From Bacteroidales bacterium (GTDB lineage: Bacteria > Bacteroidota > Bacteroidia > Bacteroidales > F082), in NCBI GenBank assembly GCA_024710405.1, contig JANJUV010000017.1, positions 62,001 through 126,000 on the forward strand: DNA of 64,000 bases, written 5' to 3'. Numbering within the stretch: the first letter of the stretch is position 1; each line of letters opens with the position of its first letter. This document shows, in pieces, positions 24,210-36,163 of the stretch. The notes under the pieces are model-generated. The model worked only from the letters and a program-made list of their open reading frames with translations, did not search any database and had not been told where the DNA came from. The position numbers were made by a program, and so were the translations under genes.

Positions 24210-24530
24210 CTACAAAAACCCAAGTTCAAGCTTTGCTTCTTCCGACAACATGCTTTGGTCCCAGGGCGGTTCAAAAGTGAGCTCCACATCGGATGAGCGT
24301 ACGCCCGTTATTCCGGCAATCTTTTGCTGTACTTCAACAGGCAGACTTTCGGCTACCGGACAATTGGGGGATGTGAGGGTCATCAATATCTTTACATCGG
24401 CATCGTCGCTGATGGCTATTTCATAAATCAAACCCAGTTCGTAAATGTTCACAGGTATTTCAGGATCGTATATGGTTTGAAGCACACTGATGACATCCAG
24501 TTCAAGTGCTTTTTGGTGTGTTGTATTCAT
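24210..24530 (-). CDS. DUF59/MIP18-family Fe-S assembly protein (SUF-associated)
   Basis: Protein of 106 residues of the DUF59 family (SufT/PaaD/MIP18-like), which assists maturation of Fe-S proteins. The family core IYDPEIPVNIYELGLIYEI and the conserved cysteine region LTSPNCPVAESLP are clear. It lies 1 nt downstream of sufE on the same strand, and in many Bacteroidota these two follow sufS directly. Here they are separated from sufS by about 6.3 kb. Probably cytoplasmic. Confidence 0.92.
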   Translation of the reverse strand: MNTTHQKALELDVISVLQTIYDPEIPVNIYELGLIYEIAISDDADVKILMTLTSPNCPVAESLPVEVQQKIAGITGVRSSDVELTFEPPWDQSMLSEEAKLELGFL

Positions 24531-24531
24531 A

Positions 24532-24957
24532 TCAATTGTTCATTTTAAGTTTGAACACCTGGGCATACAATTTTATCTGTTTGATCATCGACAACAGTCC
24601 GTTGGAGCGTGTTGGCGACAGATGCTCTTTGAGACCAATCTTGTCGAGAAAACCCAGATCAGCCTGCAGTATCTCTTCAGGGCTGCGGCCCGAAAGCACC
24701 CTGATGAGCAGGTTTATAATTCCTTTAGTGATCACAGCATCGCTGTCGGCACTGAAAAACACCTTTCCGTCCCTGAATGATGCATGCAGCCATACCCGCG
24801 ACTGACAACCCGAGATCAGATAATTATTGGTTTTGTAATGTCCATCAATCATGGGTATATCCCTGCCCGTCTCAATCAGATAGTTGTATTTGTCGAGCCA
24901 GTCTTCGAACACCGAGAACTCCTCAACAATCTGCTGTGCGGTTTCTTCAATCGTCAT
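24532..24957 (-). CDS. sufE: SufE family sulfur-acceptor protein
   Basis: Sulfur-transfer partner of SufS, 141 residues. It takes the persulfide from cysteine desulfurase onto the conserved cysteine in LISGCQSRVW and passes it to the SufBCD scaffold. The opening MTIEETAQQIVEEFSVFEDW and later SNGLLSMIKQIK are typical. ATG at 24957 is chosen; the frame continues to a TTG at 24975. CATCTTTG on the minus strand (24973-24980), one base off consensus, may be its -7 box, so it can be expressed apart from sufBCDS. Confidence 0.93.
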   Translation of the reverse strand: MTIEETAQQIVEEFSVFEDWLDKYNYLIETGRDIPMIDGHYKTNNYLISGCQSRVWLHASFRDGKVFFSADSDAVITKGIINLLIRVLSGRSPEEILQADLGFLDKIGLKEHLSPTRSNGLLSMIKQIKLYAQVFKLKMNN

Positions 24958-25206: not shown

Positions 25207-25229
25207 CGTTATGCTAATTTTGCATATCG
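25207..25229. promoter_or_regulatory. ModE-box-like operator 1
   Basis: A 23-bp near-palindrome: CGTTATG, nine bases, CATATCG. It contains the whole -7 element TAATTTTG. The same layout recurs at 29746-29768 before the second transcription unit. The end sequence CGTTAT facing ATAtCG resembles the E. coli ModE box (CGTTAT...ATAACG). Binding would block the promoter. Confidence 0.65.
25215..25222 (+). promoter_or_regulatory. TAnnTTTG-type promoter of the lipoprotein-TonB receptor unit
   Basis: TAATTTTG with TTG at 25194-25196, 18 bp upstream. The ATG follows at 25261. Embedded in the palindromic operator. Confidence 0.65.
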
Positions 25230-25260
25230 AAATTTAATCATTATTAAAACCCCAAACGAA

Positions 25261-25836
25261 ATGAAAACCATTACCCTGAATCTGATTTTGTTGTTTGCAG
25301 CCGCCATGCTTGTGTTCACCTCTTGCAAGAAAGACGAGGATAACGAACCGGCTAAAAACATTGTTACACTGGGTGCTCAGGAAAACACCACTCATGGCGC
25401 ATTCTTATCTGTGACCGAGAAGAAAGTGTATAAACAGGCCGATGCTTTCGCTGCCTCTGACAAAATTGATATTCTCTGCTTCTTTGAAGAAGCCGGTGGA
25501 AACAACATTGCCATCGCTGCTCCCGGAACCGGTATTAATGGCATTTACACAGGCGAAACCGCACCTGAAAACTGGGCCACCAAAAACCAGACTTATTTCA
25601 CAGATCCTGCTACAGAAATAACTGTTGCGCAATTCGATCAGCTGAAAGACGGCGATGCCATCATCCAAAGCTATTATGACGAAACCGTAACCAGCGGCAA
25701 CCGCAAAAAGAAAGACATGAAGGTGGATGACATTTATGCATTCAAAACTGTTTCCGGAACATACGGATTATTTAAAGTAACTGCCGTTGAGCAGGGCGCA
25801 ACGGGTCTTGTCACTTTCGAGTTCAAAACCAAATAA
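25261..25836 (+). CDS. surface-type lipoprotein of the ModE/TonB module (paralogue 1)
   Basis: Lipoprotein of 191 residues of no family I can name. The signal peptide ends at the lipobox VFTSC, and the mature end CKKDEDNEP fits the acidic signal that sends Bacteroidota lipoproteins to the cell surface. The rest (about 38-191) is one domain that is also found in the next gene: GAQENTTHGAFLSV, FDQLKDGDAIIQSYY and a closing FKTVSGTYGLFKV. It is the first gene after the operator-promoter and is separated from the next by a strong hairpin, so it may be made in excess. A ligand-binding partner of the TonB receptor is inference. Confidence 0.8.
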   Translation: MKTITLNLILLFAAAMLVFTSCKKDEDNEPAKNIVTLGAQENTTHGAFLSVTEKKVYKQADAFAASDKIDILCFFEEAGGNNIAIAAPGTGINGIYTGETAPENWATKNQTYFTDPATEITVAQFDQLKDGDAIIQSYYDETVTSGNRKKKDMKVDDIYAFKTVSGTYGLFKVTAVEQGATGLVTFEFKTK

Positions 25837-25859
25837 TTACCACTTATTGAAGATATTGT

Positions 25860-25901
25860 TATTCAACTGCACCGGCAAAAAGTTTCCGGTGCAGTTGAAT
25901 A
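25860..25901. promoter_or_regulatory. perfect 16-bp hairpin between the two lipoprotein genes
   Basis: TATTCAACTGCACCGG (25860-25875 begins with T) pairs with 25886-25901 with no mismatch around a 10-nt loop. No T-run follows, so it is not a standard terminator; it may protect the upstream mRNA end or attenuate read-through. A second weaker palindrome ATTCAAC-TGCAAT-GTTGAAT overlaps 25917-25936, repeating the same arm sequence. Confidence 0.75.
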
Positions 25902-25968
25902 TCACGTTTAAGATAATTCAACTGCAATGTTGAATTCAGGTATTCTGTCAAACCAACACCAAACTGAT

Positions 25969-26895
25969 ATGAACCGGCGAACATTGCTTTTTATGTTTTT
26001 CAACCTGTTGCTGATGTTTGTTCTGGCCATCGTAACGGCATGTGAAAAGACTGAACCTGCGGTCAGCAAACCCTTTGTGGCACTCAAAACCGGCGAATTC
26101 ACCGCCGATGGTACCGAAGTGCCTGTCGGCGGCAAGCTCACCTTCGGAATTACAGCCACGGAAGGAAGTGCCCCTTTGACAAACATTGTGATCAGACGTG
26201 TTGCCGACGGAATTGTGTCAACAGAACTGGATCAGGGCATCTATCTTCCTTCCGGGGGCCTCGATTACACCTTTAGGGCCACCAAGTCAGCTGCACAGCG
26301 CGAAGAATGGCATTTTAAGGTAATGAATGCACGGCGCGATACGGCTTCTGTTACAATAACAGTTCATCTGGGCGAAGGCTCCGCCTACAGCCCAATCAAC
26401 CATTATCCTTCGCTGATTATCGGAATGCAGCACAATACCGGATTGCCGCAATATGTCGACCTTCGGACGGGCAACGTATTTACAACCGAAACAGTAGGCG
26501 GAAACGAAGCCTCCGTTGACATGGTAGCCTTTGTGTATTTCACAGGTGGTGTGATGTCGCCGACACTTTGCTGCCCTGCTTACTCAGGCAGCAGTTCGGT
26601 CACAGGGCACTATCCCGACATCGCCGGCTGGCCTGTGCGTAATTCAACACTGTACGACTATTACACCAGCGACAACGACCTCATTGATCCAGCCGATTTT
26701 GAAGCAGCCGTCAACGACAGCCTGCTGGTGCAAGCCTACAAACCGGGCAATGTAAGCGGACTGTGCAAATTTATGTTCACAGGCCGTATTGTCCCATTTA
26801 AAACATCCGATGGCAAATACGGATTGATCAGGGTGAAACATGCTGATACTGTATCAGAAGGTTTTATGGAAATTGAAATAAAAGTACAGCAATGA
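25969..26895 (+). CDS. lipoprotein of the ModE/TonB module (paralogue 2)
   Basis: Lipoprotein of 308 residues with signal peptide and lipobox IVTAC. After an N-terminal beta-rich region (about 30-130; FVALKTGEFTADGTEVPVGG, then TFRATKSAAQ) it carries a C-terminal domain related to the preceding gene's: GMQHNTGLPQYVDL aligns with GAQENTTHGAFLSV, and FKTSDGKYGLIRV with FKTVSGTYGLFKV. A Cys pair (TLCCPAYSG) and a further Cys (GLCKFMF) are unique to this copy. Its stop overlaps the TonB receptor start (ATGA), which implies equal production and probably a complex at the outer membrane. Confidence 0.82.
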   Translation: MNRRTLLFMFFNLLLMFVLAIVTACEKTEPAVSKPFVALKTGEFTADGTEVPVGGKLTFGITATEGSAPLTNIVIRRVADGIVSTELDQGIYLPSGGLDYTFRATKSAAQREEWHFKVMNARRDTASVTITVHLGEGSAYSPINHYPSLIIGMQHNTGLPQYVDLRTGNVFTTETVGGNEASVDMVAFVYFTGGVMSPTLCCPAYSGSSSVTGHYPDIAGWPVRNSTLYDYYTSDNDLIDPADFEAAVNDSLLVQAYKPGNVSGLCKFMFTGRIVPFKTSDGKYGLIRVKHADTVSEGFMEIEIKVQQ

Positions 26896-29207
26896 ACAGG
26901 ATATTGACGTGTACCATAGCCATTATGCTGACGGCATTTACGGTTCAGGGGCAGGAACTTCTCAGGGGTCAGGTTTTGGACGCACAAAATCAAATAACCG
27001 TACCCGGAGCACATATTTATATAGGCAATAAATTAGTAGGTGTCAGCGATTTTCAGGGCTACTTCAGTCTTGATGATGTTTCACCAAAAAACCAACTGGC
27101 TGTCACTGCGATCGGATACAATCGTTTCACCCATATCCTTACAAAACAAGATCTTAACGGCCGACTGTTTGTGGCAGAGTTGCAATCTTCCGACATTGGA
27201 CTTGATGAGTTTGTTGTGACAGCCACGCGCAACGAACAGCGCATCAACGAGATACCTGGACGTATTGAATTGATTGGAGCCGAACGGCTGTCCTTTGCGG
27301 CTGCTCCTTCAGCGGATGAGGCTATTTCCACCCTTCCCGGTGTTCACAGCGGCCGTTCTTTCGGACTTTTTTCGCACCGTGCAACAGTAAGTATGCGGGG
27401 TGTGAGCGGGAAAGAGCAGGCGCGTACTCTTGTGCTGCTTGATGGTGTGCCCATGAACAAAGCCGATGGAGGTTCTGTAAACTGGAATCTATTTTCGACA
27501 GGCGATATTGAACGGATCGAAGTGGTCAAGGGGCCGGGTTCGGCACTATACGGAGGCAATGCGATGGGTGGTGTGATCAATATCGTCAGGCGTAAGCCCG
27601 GCAAGCCATTGGAAGGCCATATTGCTGCTTCAGGAGGAACCTATTTCACACGCGGGTTCAGGGGAAACCTTGGTGGGCGCAAAGGGGCATTTTACTGGCA
27701 GGCTTCGGGATTGTGGCGCGCCAGCGATGGTTATATTACCCAATCGGAGGCCGACCGTAAAGCGAATCCACATATCATTAAGTCGGATTTTCACGAAAAA
27801 ATGGCTACACTAAGAGCCGGCTACAGCCAGAGCGAAAAGTTTGAAGCAGAGGTGGTTTTTTCCGCTTTTGATGACACCCGCGGTACAGGCGAAAAAGTAT
27901 ATCAACCCGAAGGCAACACCACCGACCACGACACCTACAGCGTTCATGCCAGTTTCAAAGGCAGATCTGGGCTTGCTTCATGGAATTCAGTGGTATTTTT
28001 TAACCGCGAAGATTACAAAAGAGTCAGCGAATGGTTTAAAGACGATTACACATGGTATGACGTCAGGTCAGCACGGCTTGACTATGGAGCACTCACCGGG
28101 ATACACCGTCAAACGGGCCGACACCTGCTATCTGCCGGTGTCGACATCAGGATGGGCGAGGTTGATGCAGCAGATATTTATTTCACTTCAACAGATCAGG
28201 TGGATAACTTCGGAAAAAACAGTTTCTATGGAATGTATGCCCAGGATCAGATCAGGTTTTATGACAGCACGATTGTGCTTGTTGCCGGACTTAGGTATGA
28301 CTATGCCACTTTTTATGAAAGCGGGTTCCGTATTCACGACCCTTCGGCTGAGACAAAATTTATGCGCCCGTATGAGTTCAGTGGCTTGCCTGCCCAAAGC
28401 TGGGGAGCGTTAAGCCCAAGAATATCATTGCAATATAAACCCGGAGACAGGTTCAGGTTGTATGCCGCATATGGCAGGGGTTTCAGGCCAGCTGTACTCG
28501 ACGACCTTTGTCGTTCGGGCAGGGTAAGGGGAGGATTCAAAGTCGCCAACCCCAGGTTATTGCCCGAGTTTCTCAATAGCTTTGAAACTGGCGCCGATTT
28601 TCGTCCGACCGAAAAACTAAGGCTTTCGGCCAGCGCATATGCTTCATCAGGAAAAGATTTTCTGTATTATGTCTCAACAGGTGACAGCATCGATATGGGT
28701 TTTGGCAACAGACCGGTAATGATCAGAGCCAACATTTCCTCTGTCAGGATGTACGGCATCGAGACTGATTTCATGCTTACGGTGTCGCCAGCCCTGCTCA
28801 TCTTTGGAAACTACGCGTTTAATATTTCTGAAATAACTGATTTTGAGGCACTGACCATGACAGATGGAGCTGATCTGACTGGCAAATACCTCACTGATGT
28901 GCCTTTCCATTCAGCCAATATGGGACTTCAGCTGCGAACACCCTATGTTGATGCAGGCGTATTGTCGAGGTTTACGGGAGCCATGTATGTCAACGACCAG
29001 AACATCACCGACGAAATCGTGGGGAGTAAGACTTATCCTGATGTTTTTACGGTTGATCTGAAACTCAGCAGGCTATTTGCTTCGCGCTATTCGGTCTCGC
29101 TTTCTGTACAGAATGTCTTCGACAGAAAGATTTATGAAAGCAAAGGAGCTGTTGGCCCCGGAAGGTTTATCATGCTCGAAGCAGGAGTTGCCCTTGGCAA
29201 AATGTAA
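26892..29207 (+). CDS. TonB-dependent outer-membrane receptor
   Basis: Outer-membrane active transporter of 771 residues. Order: signal peptide (1-19), CarboxypepD_reg-like domain (about 22-100), TonB-box region, plug domain (about 115-225; ISTLPGVHSGRSFG, TLVLLDGVPMNKADGG, GPGSALYGGNAMGGVINIV) and a 22-strand-type barrel ending in an aromatic-poor GRFIMLEAGVALGKM. There is no SusD partner, so it is not a SusC glycan importer; size and plug are of the siderophore/cobalamin/metal class. It is translationally coupled to a lipoprotein and lies behind a ModE-like operator. The cargo is probably an oxyanion, a metal chelate or a cofactor; this is inferred only from the regulator. Confidence 0.93.
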   Translation: MNRILTCTIAIMLTAFTVQGQELLRGQVLDAQNQITVPGAHIYIGNKLVGVSDFQGYFSLDDVSPKNQLAVTAIGYNRFTHILTKQDLNGRLFVAELQSSDIGLDEFVVTATRNEQRINEIPGRIELIGAERLSFAAAPSADEAISTLPGVHSGRSFGLFSHRATVSMRGVSGKEQARTLVLLDGVPMNKADGGSVNWNLFSTGDIERIEVVKGPGSALYGGNAMGGVINIVRRKPGKPLEGHIAASGGTYFTRGFRGNLGGRKGAFYWQASGLWRASDGYITQSEADRKANPHIIKSDFHEKMATLRAGYSQSEKFEAEVVFSAFDDTRGTGEKVYQPEGNTTDHDTYSVHASFKGRSGLASWNSVVFFNREDYKRVSEWFKDDYTWYDVRSARLDYGALTGIHRQTGRHLLSAGVDIRMGEVDAADIYFTSTDQVDNFGKNSFYGMYAQDQIRFYDSTIVLVAGLRYDYATFYESGFRIHDPSAETKFMRPYEFSGLPAQSWGALSPRISLQYKPGDRFRLYAAYGRGFRPAVLDDLCRSGRVRGGFKVANPRLLPEFLNSFETGADFRPTEKLRLSASAYASSGKDFLYYVSTGDSIDMGFGNRPVMIRANISSVRMYGIETDFMLTVSPALLIFGNYAFNISEITDFEALTMTDGADLTGKYLTDVPFHSANMGLQLRTPYVDAGVLSRFTGAMYVNDQNITDEIVGSKTYPDVFTVDLKLSRLFASRYSVSLSVQNVFDRKIYESKGAVGPGRFIMLEAGVALGKM

Positions 29208-29224
29208 TCGACAGCGAAAAAATG

Positions 29225-29596
29225 CTACTCGTGCTGCTTTAACTGCTGCAGGCTGCTGATCATGTCTTCAAACAGTTTATTGATCTCCGGACTGGCGCGT
29301 TCATAAAGGTGGTCGAAGAAGTACACCATTTTTTCGCCCTCAGCAGTGAGAATGGTGTGTCCGCCTTTTTCGCCTCCACGTGTTTTCTCAATCAGCGGAA
29401 ACCCAAGTTTCGACTCTATCTTTTTCAGGTTCTCCCAGGTTTGCCGGTAGGTATAGCCCAGTTGATTCACAGCTGCCTGCAAAGAGCCGGTTTCCTTTAT
29501 TGCCTTGAGGAGCATCCACTTGCCTTCTCCCAGAATGCTTTCGCCATTGGATTTCTCTATCCAGAATTTGAATTTTAACTGAAGGTCATCATTCAT
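29225..29596 (-). CDS. ModE-type winged-helix regulator without molybdate-binding domain
   Basis: DNA-binding protein of 123 residues. The winged helix-turn-helix (about 18-85) has the ModE features: KWMLLKAIKETGSLQAAV (helix 1-2), GYTYRQTWENLKKIE (recognition helix) and the wing TRGGEKGGHTILT, matching the ATGGKGGGGAVLT-type wing of E. coli ModE. The TOBE/Mop molybdate domains are absent, so the signal must be sensed in the short C-terminal helix or by another protein. ATG at 29596 is preferred to an upstream codon at 29632. It lies between the two units that carry the 23-bp palindromes and ends convergently with the receptor gene. Confidence 0.88.
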   Translation of the reverse strand: MNDDLQLKFKFWIEKSNGESILGEGKWMLLKAIKETGSLQAAVNQLGYTYRQTWENLKKIESKLGFPLIEKTRGGEKGGHTILTAEGEKMVYFFDHLYERASPEINKLFEDMISSLQQLKQHE

Positions 29597-29630
29597 GTCA
29601 GTTATGTTGCTTCTGAGGTGCAAGTTAATC

Positions 29631-29711
29631 AATAGTTATGACGCAAACCTGTTTCCATGACCTGCCAGAAGGGAATCCGTGCGAATTTAGAATCGATATA
29701 AATAGTTATGA
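29631..29711. promoter_or_regulatory. direct repeat AATAGTTATGA in the modE-like divergent gap
   Basis: AATAGTTATGA occurs at 29631-29641 and 29701-29711, exactly 70 bp apart. The core GTTATG is also the arm of the palindromic operators, and another GTTATG lies at 29601, so these may be extra half-sites for autoregulation. Confidence 0.45.
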
Positions 29712-29745
29712 TTGGTTGGTACCATCACGAATAGGTCGAAATTTG

Positions 29746-29768
29746 CGATATGTTAATTTTGCATGTCG
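29746..29768. promoter_or_regulatory. ModE-box-like operator 2
   Basis: CGATATG, nine bases, CATGTCG: the same 23-bp layout as 25207-25229 with 19 of 23 identical positions, and again containing TAATTTTG. It precedes the SUOX-like lipoprotein gene by 15 nt. Confidence 0.65.
29754..29761 (+). promoter_or_regulatory. TAnnTTTG-type promoter of the SUOX-like lipoprotein gene
   Basis: TAATTTTG inside operator 2, 22 nt before the ATG at 29784. Confidence 0.6.
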
Positions 29769-29783
29769 GATAAATTCAGTATT

Positions 29784-30854
29784 ATGAAAACCATGAGATA
29801 CTTTACGTTAGCAATCTGTTTTCTGGTAATGGCTATTGGTTTTTTTTCCTGTTCAGGTCCATTGGGCACTGATGCACTAACCGGAGCCAGCAAGAATTTC
29901 GCTTCGGGTGGTAACAGTTTGTTTCACCGGACAGAGCCGGTTCGAATGCAGCAGGGCACCCTTATGCTGGCAGGTGAAGTTACGGTGGCAGGACCGATTG
30001 ACCTGAAGGGCCTTTACGAACGTGAAACAGTTGTCAGGGAAGCCCGTCATGATTCGTCGGGAATGGCACTGGTCGGAGCCTATCGCTACAAGGGTTATTC
30101 TTTGCTCGACCTGCTCAACGACAATGTTTTGGCCAAGAAGAATGCTGAACTGTTCAGGCCGGCAATAGATCTGTATCTTATTGTCGAAAATGAGACGGGC
30201 CAGCGGGTTGTATTTTCCTGGTCGGAGATTTTCCACACCGCACGCCCACATCAGATCATGATTGCAACTGCTGCAGCTCCTGTGCTGCCCTACAAGCGCG
30301 AAGTAACCTATCCTGTTTCGCCAATCTGGAGGATCGTGGCAGCCGACGACCTGAACAACGAACGTTTTCTTGAGAATCCGAGCAAAATTACGGTTGTGTC
30401 ATTTGATAAAAAAGAGTATCCGATCAACCGTGAAATCAAGCCTTTGTTCAGTTCTGCGATTGACGTCCGCTTGCACGACAGCATCGTAGCTGTTTTGGGG
30501 CCTGATCAAGCATCACAGGAGCACCTGCATTACGAAACTACATTTTACGGAATGGGCATGGGATATCATTCTGTTGACGGCTTCTCCGGACCATCGGTTG
30601 AAGTTTTGCTGAAGCCTTTCACAGCACATCTGCACGATGAACTTTCGGGCAGTGGACTGGTGTGTTTTTCCGGACTCGATGGATACAGAACAGTGTTCAG
30701 TTACAGCGAGTTGTTCAATCGTGCTGATGGAATAAAGGCGATCCTTGCCGTGAATGAAGAAGAAGGGGGAATGTTCAGGCTGTTTCACCCGGCCGATTTC
30801 TTTGCCGACCGCTCAGTGAAAGCTTTGCAGGAAGTGTATATCTTTCAGCCCTGA
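29784..30854 (+). CDS. lipoprotein with two SUOX-fold-like (molybdopterin-binding-type) repeats
   Basis: Lipoprotein of 356 residues (lipobox FFSC, Cys22). The mature protein contains two related halves. Half 1: LAGEVTVAGPIDLKGLY, YRYKGYSLLDLLN, TGQRVVFSWSEIFHTARP, FLENPSKITVVSF. Half 2: DGFSGPSVEVLLKPF, DGYRTVFSYSELFNRADG, FADRSVKALQEVYIF. The pattern resembles the oxidoreductase molybdopterin-binding (sulfite-oxidase) fold, but no cysteine sits in either half where sulfite oxidase binds its cofactor, so it is probably a binder rather than an enzyme. The ATG at 29784 is used because the upstream codon at 29763 lies inside the operator. It shares the ModE-like control of the TonB receptor unit. 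Confidence 0.7.
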   Translation: MKTMRYFTLAICFLVMAIGFFSCSGPLGTDALTGASKNFASGGNSLFHRTEPVRMQQGTLMLAGEVTVAGPIDLKGLYERETVVREARHDSSGMALVGAYRYKGYSLLDLLNDNVLAKKNAELFRPAIDLYLIVENETGQRVVFSWSEIFHTARPHQIMIATAAAPVLPYKREVTYPVSPIWRIVAADDLNNERFLENPSKITVVSFDKKEYPINREIKPLFSSAIDVRLHDSIVAVLGPDQASQEHLHYETTFYGMGMGYHSVDGFSGPSVEVLLKPFTAHLHDELSGSGLVCFSGLDGYRTVFSYSELFNRADGIKAILAVNEEEGGMFRLFHPADFFADRSVKALQEVYIFQP

Positions 30855-31232: not shown

Positions 31233-32462
31233 TTAAAGAAGCATTTTTGCGGCCTTTTGCACGGCATCGCAGAGCATATCAACTTCCTCAAAGGTATTAT
31301 ACAAAGCAAATGAGGCCCTTACGGTTCCGGGAATGCCGTAAATATCCATCACCGGCTGAGCACAATGATGGCCAGTTCGTACCGCAATACCCATCTTGTC
31401 GAGCAAGGTTCCGGCATCGTAAGGGTGTGAATCGCCGAGTAAAAATGATACCAGCCCACTGCGTTGCGTTGGATGTCCGACAAACCTGATTCCGGGTATT
31501 TCCGAAAGTTTTCCGACAGCATAATCAAGCAAACGGTGCTCATAGGCATGAACCTGAGCTATATCCTGTAGATTCAGAAATTCGAGGGCGGCCCCAAGAC
31601 CAAGAACAGCACCCACATTGGGTGTTCCGGCCTCAAATTTGAAAGGAAGCTCGTTAAATGTTGTTTCGGCAAAACTTACCTGATCCACCATCTCGCCTCC
31701 AAACTGCCAGGGTTCCATTTGCTCCAGCCATCTCTGCTTGCCGTAGAGCACTCCTACTCCCATCGGGGCATACACTTTATGTCCTGAATACACATAAAAG
31801 TCACAGTCCAGTTCCTGCACATCCACCTGCATATGGGCCACAGCCTGAGCCCCGTCAACCAGCACCGGGATACCAGCTTCATGGGCCATACGCGTCATCT
31901 CTTTTGCGGGATTCACTGTTCCCAGGGCGTTGGAAATATGCGTGAAGGCAGCCATCACAGGGCGTTGCTGAAGCAATTCGCTAAAATGGTTCAGATCAAC
32001 TTCTCCCGTGTCGGTGAGACGGGTCACAAGCAAACGTCCGTTGTAATTACGGCATAGTTGCTGCCAGGGAACCATGTTTGAGTGGTGTTCCATAGCTGTA
32101 ACCAATATGCTGCTTCCGGGTTTCATCAGCAGCTTACCCATAGAATGACTTACAAGGTTAACAGATTCGGTAGTGCCTTTGGTGAAAATGATCTCGTGTG
32201 CAGCTTGTGCATTTAGGTTGCGTGCCACATGGCCCCGGGTTTGCTCAAAAGCATCGGTTGCCTGCTGGCTGAGGTAGTGTACTCCGCGATGAATATTGCA
32301 GTTTTCCTGTTCGTAGTATCTTGTGAGCCGGTCAATGACTATCCGTGGTTTTTGCGTTGTTGCCGCATTATCGAGATAAACAAGGGGTTTGCCATACACC
32401 TTCTGGTGTAAGGCAGGGAAATCATCCCGCACACTGTGGGCATCAAAGGCGGGTGTTTTCAT
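31233..32462 (-). CDS. sufS: cysteine desulfurase SufS
   Basis: PLP-dependent desulfurase of 409 residues that draws sulfur from cysteine for Fe-S assembly. YLDNAATTQKP opens the fold, the PLP Lys is in YSGHKVYAPMG, and the persulfide Cys367 is in RTGHHCAQP, the SufS/CsdA class II motif. The ATG at 32462 lies 1 nt after the sufD stop; a longer frame into sufD is rejected. Normally followed by sufE and a DUF59 gene, which here lie 6.3 kb downstream beyond the TonB module. Confidence 0.97.
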   Translation of the reverse strand: MKTPAFDAHSVRDDFPALHQKVYGKPLVYLDNAATTQKPRIVIDRLTRYYEQENCNIHRGVHYLSQQATDAFEQTRGHVARNLNAQAAHEIIFTKGTTESVNLVSHSMGKLLMKPGSSILVTAMEHHSNMVPWQQLCRNYNGRLLVTRLTDTGEVDLNHFSELLQQRPVMAAFTHISNALGTVNPAKEMTRMAHEAGIPVLVDGAQAVAHMQVDVQELDCDFYVYSGHKVYAPMGVGVLYGKQRWLEQMEPWQFGGEMVDQVSFAETTFNELPFKFEAGTPNVGAVLGLGAALEFLNLQDIAQVHAYEHRLLDYAVGKLSEIPGIRFVGHPTQRSGLVSFLLGDSHPYDAGTLLDKMGIAVRTGHHCAQPVMDIYGIPGTVRASFALYNTFEEVDMLCDAVQKAAKMLL

Positions 32463-32463
32463 A

Positions 32464-33879
32464 TCAAAGCTTACTGTAATCGATATCGAAATGGTATTCC
32501 TTTTCGGGTGAGCCGCAATGCAGCACACATTTCTCGCAAACAGACAGTTCACCACGTAACCTTTTTTTAACCATGTCATCAATTCGGTTGCGCAATGGTT
32601 CGATGGAGATCTCGCTGATGATGTCGGATGCAAAGGCATACATAAGTAACAGACGGGCATTAGCCTTGCTGATACCCCGCGAACGCAGGTAAAACATAGC
32701 ATCCTGATCAAGTTGTCCGATGGTGGCCCCGTGGCTGCACTTTACGTCATCGGCATAGATTTCAAGAAAAGGTTTTGTGTTGATGGTTGCCGTTGGCTTC
32801 AACAGGATGTTGTTGTTGTTCTGGTAGGCGTTGGTTTTCTGGGCATCACGAGCCACATGGATATAGCCGTTAAACACGGCTGATGCCTGATCGTCGAGAA
32901 TCCCCTTGAACAGTTCGTTGCTGGTGCAGTTGGGTTGGTTGTGGTTGATTCTTATTTGGTTGTCAACATGTTGCGACTTATCCATCAGGTACAGGCCCAG
33001 CACATCGGCATGGGCTCCACTGCCATCGAGATTGATGTGTATGGTGTTGCGTATCAGGCCACAGTTGAAGGTCAGCGTATTTGTCTTTACGGTACTGTCG
33101 GCCATCTGACGGATAAAGGTGGTGTTCACGAGGCCCGACTGATCGTTGAGGTTTTGAAGTTTATACAATTCAAACCTTGCACCTTCGGAAACAAATATTT
33201 CGGTTACAGTGTTAACCAGGCTGCTGTGCTGGTTGATGGAATCGTCGCAATGCATGAGGCTCAGGCTGCTGTTTCGTCCAAGGATAATCAGGTTGCGGTT
33301 TTGTACAAAAAGATTCTCCTCAAGGTCAATCATTTTGATGATCTGCAGTGTTTTGCGGGCGTTCACTCCATCGGGCACATAGATAAACACACCGTCCTGT
33401 ACCAGAGCCGTGTTGATGGCCGTGAAACCATTGAGTGTGTTTTGGGCTATCTCGCCATAATACTGTTCAAAAAGTGCGGGATAAGCATTCATGGCTGCTT
33501 TAAAACTTCCCACAACTACACCATCGGGCAGCGTTCTTAGCTTTTCGTTACTATCATGATACCAACCATTAAGCATCGAAACTATTTCGGTGTCGAAGTT
33601 ATGCACTTCGCAGCGGAACAGTTCGTCCATGTTGCGGTCGGCCTGAGCCGGCTCAATCAACTGAACAAAGTCTTCACAGGTAAGGTTTTCTATTTCAGTG
33701 TTTTTCCACTTTTCATGGGTGCTGTCGGGGAATCTGTTTGTTTTGAAATGCTGCAAAGCTGTGTCGCGCATTAATTCAACCTTGGAAATATCACCCCGCA
33801 CGATTGTTTCCCGGCTCATTTCGTAACTGCTGATGAGCATTTCATCGAGCGGCAACTGATTTGATTCAATTGGGTTCAT
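32464..33879 (-). CDS. sufD: Fe-S cluster assembly protein SufD
   Basis: Scaffold subunit of 471 residues that pairs with SufB on the SufC ATPase dimer. The C-terminal beta-helix core carries KCSHGATIGQLDQDAMFYLR and SRGISKANARLLL, with the diagnostic histidine in the first. The ATG at 33879 lies 17 nt after the sufC stop; the upstream codon at 33924 is within sufC. The C-terminal tail CEKCVLHCGS has three cysteines close together, which is unusual and could contact metal or sulfur. Confidence 0.95.
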   Translation of the reverse strand: MNPIESNQLPLDEMLISSYEMSRETIVRGDISKVELMRDTALQHFKTNRFPDSTHEKWKNTEIENLTCEDFVQLIEPAQADRNMDELFRCEVHNFDTEIVSMLNGWYHDSNEKLRTLPDGVVVGSFKAAMNAYPALFEQYYGEIAQNTLNGFTAINTALVQDGVFIYVPDGVNARKTLQIIKMIDLEENLFVQNRNLIILGRNSSLSLMHCDDSINQHSSLVNTVTEIFVSEGARFELYKLQNLNDQSGLVNTTFIRQMADSTVKTNTLTFNCGLIRNTIHINLDGSGAHADVLGLYLMDKSQHVDNQIRINHNQPNCTSNELFKGILDDQASAVFNGYIHVARDAQKTNAYQNNNNILLKPTATINTKPFLEIYADDVKCSHGATIGQLDQDAMFYLRSRGISKANARLLLMYAFASDIISEISIEPLRNRIDDMVKKRLRGELSVCEKCVLHCGSPEKEYHFDIDYSKL

Positions 33880-33896
33880 GTGAATTACGATAGTTA

Positions 33897-34652
33897 TTAA
33901 ACGAGGTGTTCCTGTTTGATCCACTCATATCCCTTTTCCTCGAGTTCGAGGGCCAGGTTTCTTCCTCCCGATTTGATGATCTTTCCGTCGAACAGCACAT
34001 GCACAAAGTCGGGAACAATCAGTTCGAGAAGCCTTTGATAATGTGTGATGACCACAAATGCATTTTCGGAGGTGCGCAGTTGGTTTACGCCGCGGGCAAC
34101 AACTTTCAAAGCATCAATGTCAAGGCCCGAGTCGGTTTCGTCGAGTATGGCAAGTGTTGGCTCCAGCATGGCCATCTGAAAAATTTCGTTCTTCTTCTTC
34201 TCACCTCCCGAAAACCCTTCATTCACCGAGCGGTTGGTGAGCTTCTCGTGGATATCGACAAGTTTTTTCTTTTCCTCCATCATCCTGAGGAAGTCGCCTG
34301 CCTGAATTGGTGCCTGACCACGATATTCGCGCTGTGCGTTGATGGCAGTGCGCATAAAATTGGTCATGCTCACCCCCGGTATCTCCACAGGATATTGAAA
34401 ACTAAGAAAGATACCCTCGTTGGCCCTTTCTTCGGCCGGCATTTCAACAATGTTTTTGCCTTTGTACCAGATTTCGCCCTGAGTGATGTCGTATCCTTCC
34501 CTTCCTGTGATGGCCGCAGCGAGTGTGCTTTTTCCGGTTCCGTTAGGCCCCATAATCGCATGAACTTCGCCTTTGTTCACGCCCAGATTGAGTCCTTTGA
34601 TAATCTCTTTGCCGTTGATGGCTACATGTAGGTTTTTTATATTCAGTAACAT
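33897..34652 (-). CDS. sufC: Fe-S cluster assembly ATPase SufC
   Basis: Soluble ABC-type ATPase of 251 residues that drives conformational change of SufB-SufD. Walker A GPNGTGKST, signature SGGEKKKNEI (the Suf variant of LSGGQ), Walker B LAILDETDSGLDID and the H-loop VVITHYQ are all present. It is separated from sufB by 59 nt, 42 of which are a 7-bp repeat array. Confidence 0.97.
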   Translation of the reverse strand: MLLNIKNLHVAINGKEIIKGLNLGVNKGEVHAIMGPNGTGKSTLAAAITGREGYDITQGEIWYKGKNIVEMPAEERANEGIFLSFQYPVEIPGVSMTNFMRTAINAQREYRGQAPIQAGDFLRMMEEKKKLVDIHEKLTNRSVNEGFSGGEKKKNEIFQMAMLEPTLAILDETDSGLDIDALKVVARGVNQLRTSENAFVVITHYQRLLELIVPDFVHVLFDGKIIKSGGRNLALELEEKGYEWIKQEHLV

Positions 34653-34663
34653 GGGTTCTTTTT

Positions 34664-34705
34664 CTGGTTACTTGTTTCTGGTTTCTGGTTTCTGGTTTCC
34701 GGTTA
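34664..34705. repeat. 7-bp tandem array inside the suf operon
   Basis: Six heptamers (CTGGTTA, CTTGTTT, three CTGGTTT, CCGGTTA) fill the sufB-sufC gap. On the transcribed strand they read AAACCAG, the opposite sense to the arrays that follow the KAS III and acyltransferase genes. Confidence 0.85.
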
Positions 34706-34711
34706 ATAGGA

Positions 34712-36163
34712 TTAGCCGACGCTTCCTTCGAGGGTGATGGATAGGAGTTTCTGGGCTTCGACGGCGAATTCCATCGGAAGTTTGTTGAGTACTTCACGGG
34801 CATAGCCGTTTACAATCAGGCCAATGGCTTTTTCTGTATCAATGCCACGCTGGTTACAGTAGAACAACTGGTCTTCGCTGATTTTTGATGTTGTAGCCTC
34901 ATGTTCGATGATGCTCGACTCGTTGCGGGCTTCGATGTAGGGGAAAGTATGAGCTCCGCAGCGGTCGCCCAGCAGAAGCGAATCGCACTGTGAGAAGTTG
35001 CGGGCATTTGTTGCACCGGGAAGGATTTTGACCAGTCCGCGGTAAGCATTGTTGCTTTTGCCGGCTGAAATGCCCTTGGAAATAATGGTGCTGCGTGTGT
35101 TCTTGCCGATATGGATCATTTTGGTGCCTGTGTCAGCCTGCTGAAAATTATTGGTGACGGCCACTGAATAAAACTCGCCGACAGAATTGTCACCGAGTAA
35201 CACACAACTGGGATATTTCCATGTGATAGACGAGCCTGTTTCTACCTGTGTCCAGGCAATTTTTGAGCTCCGGCCCTTACACAACCCGCGCTTGGTAACG
35301 AAGTTATACACTCCTCCTTTGCCTTCCTTATCGCCCGGATACCAGTTCTGTACGGTGCTGTATTTCACCTCGGCATGATCCATGGCTACAATTTCAACGA
35401 TGGCTGCATGCAACTGGTTCTCATCACGCATGGGAGCCGTGCAGCCTTCCATATAACTCACGTAGCTGCTTTCTTCAGCTACAATAAGGGTGCGTTCAAA
35501 CTGACCCGTGTTGGCTGCATTGATCCTGAAATAGGTGGATAGCTCGAGCGGGCAGCGTACACCTTTGGGAATGTAGCAGAAAGAACCGTCACTGAAAACT
35601 GCTGAATTGAGAGCGGCAAAGAAATTGTCGGTGTAAGGCACAACACTTCCCATGTGTTTTCGCACAAGTTCGGGATGATTGCGGACAGCCTCGCTGAAGG
35701 AACAAAAAATGATTCCGTGTTTGGCTAAGGTGTCCTGAAAAGTTGTTTTCACCGAAACGCTGTCGATTACGGCATCTACAGCCACCCCTGAAAGTCGTTT
35801 TTGCTCGTCGAGCGAAATGCCAAGCTTATTGAACGTCTCGAGCAGTTCAGGATCTACTTCATCCAGACTGCTGAGCTCTTTTTTCTTCTTAGGTGCAGCA
35901 TAGTAAATGATATCCTGATAGCTGACAGGTGGATACTGAATGTGTGCCCATTCAGGTTCGCTAAGGGTGAGCCAGTGCCTGAAAGCCTTCAGCCTGAATT
36001 CGAGCATCCAATCAGGTTCCTCCTTCTTGGCCGAAATAAAGCGTATGGTGTCTTCGGTAAGCCCGGGAACAGCCATTTCGGTTTCAATGTCTGTGTAAAA
36101 ACCGTATTTGTATTCCCCTGTGGTTACCTCTTCAAGTATATTGTTGTTCGGATTGTTGTCCAT
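34712..36163 (-). CDS. sufB: Fe-S cluster assembly protein SufB
   Basis: Scaffold subunit of 483 residues on which the nascent cluster forms. [40 protein letters not shown] and the acceptor region [14 protein letters not shown] (with the conserved cysteine) are characteristic. First gene of the sufBCDS run. Length is normal for the family. Confidence 0.97.

Follow-up and report, generated by a model that had tools for sequence, protein, structure and literature searches.

A ModE-type repressor of a Bacteroidales bacterium (GTDB family F082) probably governs a regulon for tungsten (or molybdenum) in which a TonB-dependent receptor and its lipoproteins form the outer-membrane arm, as judged from sequence comparison. 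The genes lie in a stretch of 64,000 nucleotides (assembly GCA_024710405.1, contig JANJUV010000017.1, positions 62,001 to 126,000), hereafter the window, and form two plus-strand units. The first unit comprises lipoprotein A (191 aa; 25261-25836), lipoprotein B (308 aa; 25969-26895), and the receptor (771 aa; 26892-29207). The second is a lipoprotein with two predicted domains of the SUOX/PruR fold (SUOXlip; 356 aa; 29784-30854). The ModE-type winged-helix regulator (123 aa; 29225-29596) is encoded between them on the minus strand. Open reading frames (ORFs) and profiles agree with this layout, which had been described in the initial annotation of the DNA. The annotation had also proposed an outer-membrane acquisition or sensing system for molybdate, tungstate, or a molybdopterin-like ligand, and this proposal gained support from motif conservation and from the company of wtp, molybdenum cofactor (Moco), and aldehyde:ferredoxin oxidoreductase (AOR, a tungstoenzyme) genes. 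Computation covered gene content, conservation of the operators, the fit to the E. coli operator, the wtp, Moco, and AOR genes nearby in relatives, joint occurrence with AOR across genomes, and fold predictions.

Two putative ModE-type operators were found by pattern match, operator 1 at 25207-25229 (CGTTATGCTAATTTTGCATATCG, CGTTATG-N9-CATATCG) and operator 2 at 29746-29768 (CGATATGTTAATTTTGCATGTCG, CGATATG-N9-CATGTCG). Both 23-bp near-palindromes thus lie where they had been annotated, and each encloses the proposed promoter element TAATTTTG (25215-25222 and 29754-29761), which we take, from the Bacteroidota promoter consensus, to be the -7-like element of the plus-strand units. With up to two mismatches, the window holds five pattern matches versus 0.99 expected, a number reached by 0 of 100 shuffles; the five are both sites read on both strands and one other. 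In the whole genome, the spacer-9 pattern shows no excess when one mismatch is allowed (6 places versus 13 for the reversed control), which speaks against the regulon. This count was therefore not used as evidence, and the case rests on comparison, the sites being distinguished by context and conservation.

For this comparison, named genomes were scanned and the best 80 of 215 SUOXlip relatives were taken, nearly all from metagenome-assembled genomes of Bacteroidales/Bacteroidetes; loci are denoted by L numbers. Operators were counted with up to one mismatch in 80 loci (1.26 Mb; L021 and L022 left out). We obtained 54 sites, 14 with a spacer of 9 and 40 with a spacer of 10, compared to none at 8 or 11 and one at 12, and the reversed control yielded zero sites at 9, one at 10, and one at 12. 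Forty-two of the 54 sites are located within -40 to 350 bp of the start of a system gene; such windows make up 7.7% of the DNA. Several of the 12 sites counted as not near (e.g., L057:5651 and L065:5597) adjoin lipoprotein-B genes with a called start upstream of the site. A site near a gene start was present in 15 of the 23 loci with lipoprotein and receptor and in 16 of the 31 with Wtp genes, versus 2 of the 30 with SUOXlip alone. The E. coli K-12 modA operator CGTTATATTGTCGCCTACATAACG fits the spacer-10 consensus CGWTATG-N10-CATAWCG with one mismatch, in line with the annotated likeness to the E. coli ModE palindrome, and this fit ties the motif to ModE independently of the annotation. The spacer-10 class has the CGNTAT...ATANCG ends and the length of about 24 bp expected of a ModE operator, the window sites being 23 bp long. 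Conservation of the motif upstream of orthologous units, set beforehand as a test of the proposal, was found for many of these units but not for all.

Gene neighbourhoods in relatives link the two units to tungstate transport genes. A first survey of 61 genomes, including the genome of the window, revealed SUOXlip in nine, one of them with a 24-residue fragment. In L020 all the genes of the set occur, ordered as in the window, and perfect sites precede lipoprotein A and SUOXlip; L019, which reaches the contig end, has SUOXlip with the regulator and both lipoproteins, together with a site that has one mismatch. In L016 and L018, a WtpABC-type operon ends with SUOXlip and is preceded by a perfect spacer-10 site, and in L021 SUOXlip is located between WtpA and WtpB. 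Among the 80 loci of the wide set, the fullest clusters (L082 and L101) comprise AOR, a divergent dehydrogenase gene, an operator or ModE, WtpA, and lipoprotein B, and onward a secreted protein with a type IX secretion system (T9SS) tail, a TonB receptor, SUOXlip, WtpB, WtpC, MoeA, MoaA, MoaC, and MOSC/Mog. ModE, WtpA, lipoprotein, receptor, SUOXlip, WtpB, and WtpC occur together in 8 loci, WtpA or WtpB in 31, and the lipoprotein-receptor pair in 23. MoeA, MoaC, and MOSC/Mog were counted in 14 loci each, MoaA in 13, and AOR in 7, with cluster labels (MoeA, MoaA, etc.) checked on one representative each. Two WtpA neighbours scored above the TIGR03730 cutoff (298 and 276 bits versus 242.75). The lipoprotein, receptor, and SUOXlip genes are flanked by wtpA and wtpB in seven loci (L052, L054, L057, L065, L066, L082, and L101). 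In Perlabentimonas gracilis M08_MB (L043), SUOXlip, the receptor, and lipoproteins occur along with an operator that has one mismatch.

We further examined twelve stretches. The order AOR, operator, ModE, operator, lipoprotein B was found in L113, L114, L115, and L118, whose genomes are devoid of SUOXlip, and in L114, L115, and L118 the receptor and Moco genes come after lipoprotein B. L120 shows the order AOR, operator, ModE, WtpA. In 5 of the 12 stretches (L113, L114, L115, L118, and L120), a site with one mismatch precedes the AOR match by about 90-100 bp. L116, L117, L119, and L124 comprise lipoprotein B, a receptor, and the secreted protein with no AOR in the stretch, and no operator site was found within the L117 and L119 stretches. 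Lipoprotein B with a receptor occurs in SUOXlip-free genomes at L114, L115, L117, and L118.

Co-occurrence was analyzed in 100 related genomes. Lipoprotein B was counted at E ≤ 1e-60 and full length; 29 further genomes with E > 1e-60, some near full-length at 1e-29 to 1e-40, were left out, as was a 24-residue SUOXlip fragment (G014). AOR (PF01314) was found in 41 genomes, the broad molybdopterin family PF00384 in 80, and SUOXlip in 14 (plus the fragment), 13 of the 14 being AOR-positive. Lipoprotein B was present in 26 genomes, and all 26 contain AOR, compared to 15 of the 74 others (p = 9e-14); this and the other Fisher p-values are inflated by shared descent, which lessens their weight for the proposed regulon, and collapse by genus was the only correction applied. 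Collapsed in this way, lipoprotein B occurs in 13 genera, all AOR-positive, versus 8 of 43 others. The contrast was weaker for PF00384 (26/26 versus 54/74, p = 0.0014). Exact spacer-10 sites numbered 45 in 28 genomes, and the control pattern gave 6 sites in 6 genomes. All 28 operator genomes contain AOR, as do 13 of the 72 others (p = 3.5e-15; by genus 13/13 versus 8/43, p = 1.1e-7), and the control pattern was without AOR bias (3/6, p = 0.69). Of the 45 exact sites, 11 are placed at lipoprotein-B gene starts, of which there are 29, and 23 have an AOR no more than 10 kb away.

The genome of the window holds further metal genes. A third operator, an exact spacer-10 site, was identified 34 bp before a second ModE-type gene (82.8 bits with TIGR00637) that overlaps wtpA, and AOR is located two genes upstream of this pair. 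WtpA passes TIGR03730 (275.4 bits, cutoff 242.75). For WtpB (281 of 340 bits) and WtpC (310 of 440 bits), the Wtp models are the best families but lie below their cutoffs, and these proteins are therefore named Wtp-like. Their genes lie on another contig near genes that resemble MOSC, MoaC, MoaA, and MoeA, the Moco genes being named by resemblance and not by family scan. AOR matches PF01314 at two places (338.5 and 327 bits, cutoff 27). A further operator-like sequence, CGATATGCAAATTCAATGCATATTG, was seen 72 bp upstream of AOR (L108:13632-13656) and was not counted because of its 11-base spacer and one mismatch. In L120, from a congener, a spacer-10 site precedes AOR.

The regulator has TIGR00637 as its best family (4.9e-18, 65 bits), below the cutoff of 98.5. 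A profile scan revealed no TOBE/Mop domain, as the initial annotation had stated, and TOBE was absent from the Pfam matches of 23 aligned regulators. By sequence, the regulator is predicted to act like ModE but does not qualify as such by the TOBE domain. Within the genome, a TOBE domain was found in WtpC only, and as a guess the regulator might sense the metal through that domain.

Lipoprotein A has a cysteine with an acidic run behind it (CKKDED), and lipoprotein B consists of an N-terminal immunoglobulin-like domain and a C-terminal domain. The two are related: in its C-terminal half, lipoprotein B aligns with lipoprotein A over 163 residues (23%, E = 1.5e-5), a kinship absent from the initial annotation. 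The AlphaFold2 model of lipoprotein B (pLDDT, the predicted local distance difference test, 93.8) has as its nearest solved structure the DUF4466 protein 4ei0 from Parabacteroides merdae (Foldseek 1.1e-10; Z 16.2 over 241 residues). The root-mean-square deviation of 18.8 looks as if the domains were set differently. Lipoprotein B is thus similar in fold to DUF4466, a family without known function. In sequence, none of the lipoproteins exceeds a curated Pfam cutoff; lipoprotein A matches DUF4466 below cutoff (E = 0.0043), no member of alignment A5 has a Pfam match to DUF4466 at E ≤ 0.1, and a search of solved structures with the lipoprotein-B profile gave no match at E ≤ 1. Of 40 lipoprotein A/B family members, 33 have a recognisable lipobox, as do 34 of 83 SUOXlip ORFs. 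Adjacent acidic residues directly follow the cysteine in 22 of these 33 A/B members, including lipoprotein A of the window, versus 0 of the 34 SUOXlip proteins. Such a run resembles the Bacteroidota surface-export signal, and by this signal lipoprotein A and many B proteins may be exposed on the cell, with SUOXlip facing the periplasm.

The receptor has a CarboxypepD_reg-like N-terminal domain, a plug (PF07715; 5e-24, 85 bits, cutoff 23.9), and a barrel (PF00593; 3.8e-39, 136 bits, cutoff 27). Among the best 25 of 30 NCBIfam models, no named substrate subfamily (heme, siderophore, B12) was reached; the best were heme/siderophore receptors, all below cutoff, with TIGR01785 leading (189.8 bits, cutoff 316.85). 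Among solved structures, its closest relatives are the receptors for colicin I, heme, and ferrichrome, with alignments mostly over the plug. Two kinds of neighbours recur beside these genes. Two genes lie between ModE and lipoprotein B in L114 (12198-13473), L118 (3451-4723), L028, and L091, and beside lipoprotein-receptor units in L043 and L094. One encodes a protein of about 248 aa, weakly similar to methanogenesis marker 11/TiaS (TIGR03280 3.6e-15, below cutoff, tested for L118), the other a membrane-like protein of about 191 aa that matches no family; the pair is possibly another inner-membrane route. A conserved protein of about 289 aa was seen beside lipoprotein B and the receptor in L052 (6716-7585), L066 (2409-3278), and eight more loci. 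The one member scanned (L066) has a T9SS sorting tail, and the protein is a possible secreted metal-capture protein.

For SUOXlip (lipobox Cys23), a predicted model (pLDDT 91.1) revealed a two-domain SUOX fold. It aligned with chicken sulfite oxidase at Z 11.7 (3.2 Å, 137 residues), tied with the pterin-binding PruR (7kom) at Z 11.5 (2.6 Å, 117 residues). Folds outside the SUOX/PruR group reached Z ≤ 4.9, except 9a64 (8.6, fold not checked). Foldseek alone was weak (best E = 2.9e-3), and the two halves align weakly to each other (profile E = 5e-4, probability 31%). The duplicated SUOX-like fold proposed for this protein therefore agrees with the predicted structure, with weak profile support for the duplication, but Pfam gave no match for the window protein, PF00174 (Oxidored_molyb) included. 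PF00174 matched 2 of 46 SUOXlip members (best E = 0.029), and a search of solved structures with the SUOXlip profile gave no match at E ≤ 1. No invariant, potentially metal-ligating cysteine was found among the 46 members, as judged by alignment columns and not by residue-by-residue structural equivalence; the columns with cysteine in at least 10 members are position 23 of the lipobox (31), 294 (25), and 337 (13).

SUOXlip also occurs in other surroundings. Some SUOXlip genes lie in glycerate 2-kinase clusters (L047, L051, L053, L059, L061, L063, L067-L070, L087, L090, and L095), most of which carry gluconate-permease-like genes, with no tungsten genes nearby; this subgroup would represent a second, unexplained role of the fold. 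The presence of SUOXlip on contigs labelled Aminicenantes, Elusimicrobia, and Chitinivibrionales (L048, L072, and L086) suggests transfer or a binning error, and in L072, by cluster label, SUOXlip adjoins WtpB, WtpC, Moco genes, and AOR. In the window, the system adjoins an iron-sulfur assembly set (24210-24957 and 31233-36163), with SufE and FeS_assembly_P identified by Pfam and ORFs that we take to be SufS/SufD/SufC/SufB-like. SufE and/or FeS_assembly_P relatives also lie beside SUOXlip in L024, L030, L036, and L039.

From these data, we infer repression, the order of events, the ligand, the direction of transport, and the roles of the single lipoproteins. The one-domain repressor (29225-29596) would bind both operators over the -7 elements, so that both plus-strand units would be off when tungstate (or molybdate) is sufficient and on under starvation; repression at sufficiency is the simplest reading of operators placed over a -7 element. 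Lipoproteins A and B at the surface would take the oxyanion or its complex and hand it to the TonB-dependent receptor, which would drive the cargo across the outer membrane. The periplasm-facing SUOXlip would pass it to WtpA or buffer it, and WtpABC would import the metal for the pterin cofactor of AOR. Tungstate appears the likelier ligand by a clear margin over molybdate, because of the AOR association and WtpA. Given its PruR-like fold, SUOXlip may bind a pterin-type ligand. We give about even chances to the full version of this scheme, a complete envelope-spanning tungsten machine in Bacteroidales that runs from surface lipoproteins over the receptor and the SUOX/PruR-fold lipoprotein to WtpABC, includes the T9SS-tailed secreted protein in relatives, carries tungstate or a tungsten chelate, and is controlled by a TOBE-less ModE that senses sufficiency, perhaps via the TOBE domain of WtpC.

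Several observations weigh against the proposed regulon and its outer-membrane arm. Of the 23 loci with lipoproteins and a TonB-dependent receptor, 8 have no site in the counted windows, and L028, L044, and L071 have no site at all with up to one mismatch. Exact spacer-10 sites are absent from 7 of the 26 lipoprotein-B genomes and from 13 of the 41 AOR genomes, and lipoprotein B is absent from 9 of the 28 operator genomes. The wtpBC locus in the genome of the window shows no operator with up to two mismatches. The regulator lacks the TOBE domain that would account for sensing, the best models for the receptor are those of heme and siderophore receptors (all listed ones below cutoff), and lipoprotein B of the window has no acidic pair after its cysteine. 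Three of the first eight relatives (L017, L022, and L023, the last with the fragment only) carry SUOXlip without another uptake gene nearby. No other system gene was found in 30 of the 80 loci at the tblastn thresholds, although L048, L072, and L086, which are among these 30, do hold cluster-labelled system genes; because of these bare loci and the 13 loci in glycerate-kinase clusters, SUOXlip cannot be assigned to the metal system alone. Finally, the common view is that tungstate and molybdate enter passively, through porins, and active outer-membrane transport is established for chelated iron, cobalamin, further metals, and sugars. As tungstate can pass porins, an active system needs a reason, e.g., a chelated form of the metal.

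Other explanations account for parts of the data. The system could scavenge pterin or ready-made tungsto- or molybdopterin, with import by the receptor and binding by the SUOX/PruR-fold domains in the periplasm; the tie between sulfite oxidase (Z 11.7) and PruR (Z 11.5) fits this, and a protein without an invariant cysteine suits a binding protein better than an enzyme. However, MoeA, MoaA, and MoaC in the same clusters (13-14 loci; L114, L115, and L118) and WtpA beside the regulator in many loci point to the metal rather than the cofactor, and the lipoprotein B-receptor loci in SUOXlip-free genomes (L114, L115, L117, and L118) likewise make scavenging unlikely. We regard it as equally improbable that the receptor imports another nutrient related to AOR, such as iron, heme, a siderophore complex, or an aldehyde-type substrate, and is merely co-regulated by the ModE-type repressor. 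The heme/siderophore character of its best NCBIfam models (TIGR01785 below cutoff) and its solved relatives, aligned mostly over the plug, would fit such a role, but the seven loci in which lipoprotein, receptor, and SUOXlip are flanked by wtpA and wtpB, and the 11 exact operators at lipoprotein-B starts, would not.

A system mainly for molybdate, with tungsten incidental, is somewhat less improbable than either, being a sub-case of the proposed regulon with overlapping odds. Each of the 26 lipoprotein-B genomes encodes PF00384 proteins, and WtpABC carries both oxyanions according to the available text of PMC11980592. On the other side, the association with AOR (26/26 versus 15/74) is far stronger than that with PF00384 (26/26 versus 54/74), and tungsten-type oxidoreductases virtually all use tungsten, with one possible exception, in the same text (PMC11980592). 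It is very improbable that the palindromes are chance repeats overlapping promoters and that the regulator acts elsewhere: the spacer-9 pattern is indeed not enriched in the genome (6 versus 13), but operator conservation and control counts in relatives, and the L020 sites before both units, contradict this.

The proposed tungsten or molybdenum regulon resembles several known systems in part. With E. coli ModE/modABC it shares the winged helix (TIGR00637 match) and the kind of palindrome; in contrast, the regulator lacks TOBE/Mop, the window operators have a spacer of 9, and an outer-membrane receptor and lipoproteins would be under control. TonB-dependent metal receptors with surface lipoproteins are known for heme, siderophores, and B12. 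The system shares with these the plug, the barrel, and lipoprotein partners, of which many carry acidic residues behind the cysteine, but its regulator and gene company point to tungsten or molybdenum and not to iron or cobalamin, and its lipoproteins match no curated family. With PruR and sulfite oxidase, SUOXlip has the predicted SUOX fold in common (Z 11.5-11.7), but it combines two domains in one lipoprotein and is often linked to wtp genes. WtpABC, described in the available text as a transporter of tungstate and molybdate (PMC11980592), is the inner-membrane step, with Wtp-like genes in the genome of the window and in relatives' clusters, to which an outer-membrane step would be added here. 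The only other dedicated outer-membrane molybdate step that we met is the type VI secretion system (T6SS)-ModA-IcmP system of P. aeruginosa, in which secreted ModA and IcmP acquire molybdate; the available text names no TonB receptor (PMC8602904). No TonB-dependent tungstate or molybdate receptor was found in titles and abstract starts of open-licence PMC articles, a search that could miss an in-text mention. If the envelope-spanning scheme is true, the receptor system would be, to our knowledge, the first TonB-dependent one for a group 6 oxyanion.

Conserved sequence thus ties a receptor, its lipoproteins, and an operator to a tungstoenzyme regulon, which gives several unnamed protein families a likely function and presents a ModE-type repressor that would sense without TOBE. 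It also offers a case in which competition for tungsten at the outer membrane, within anaerobic communities, can be tested directly.

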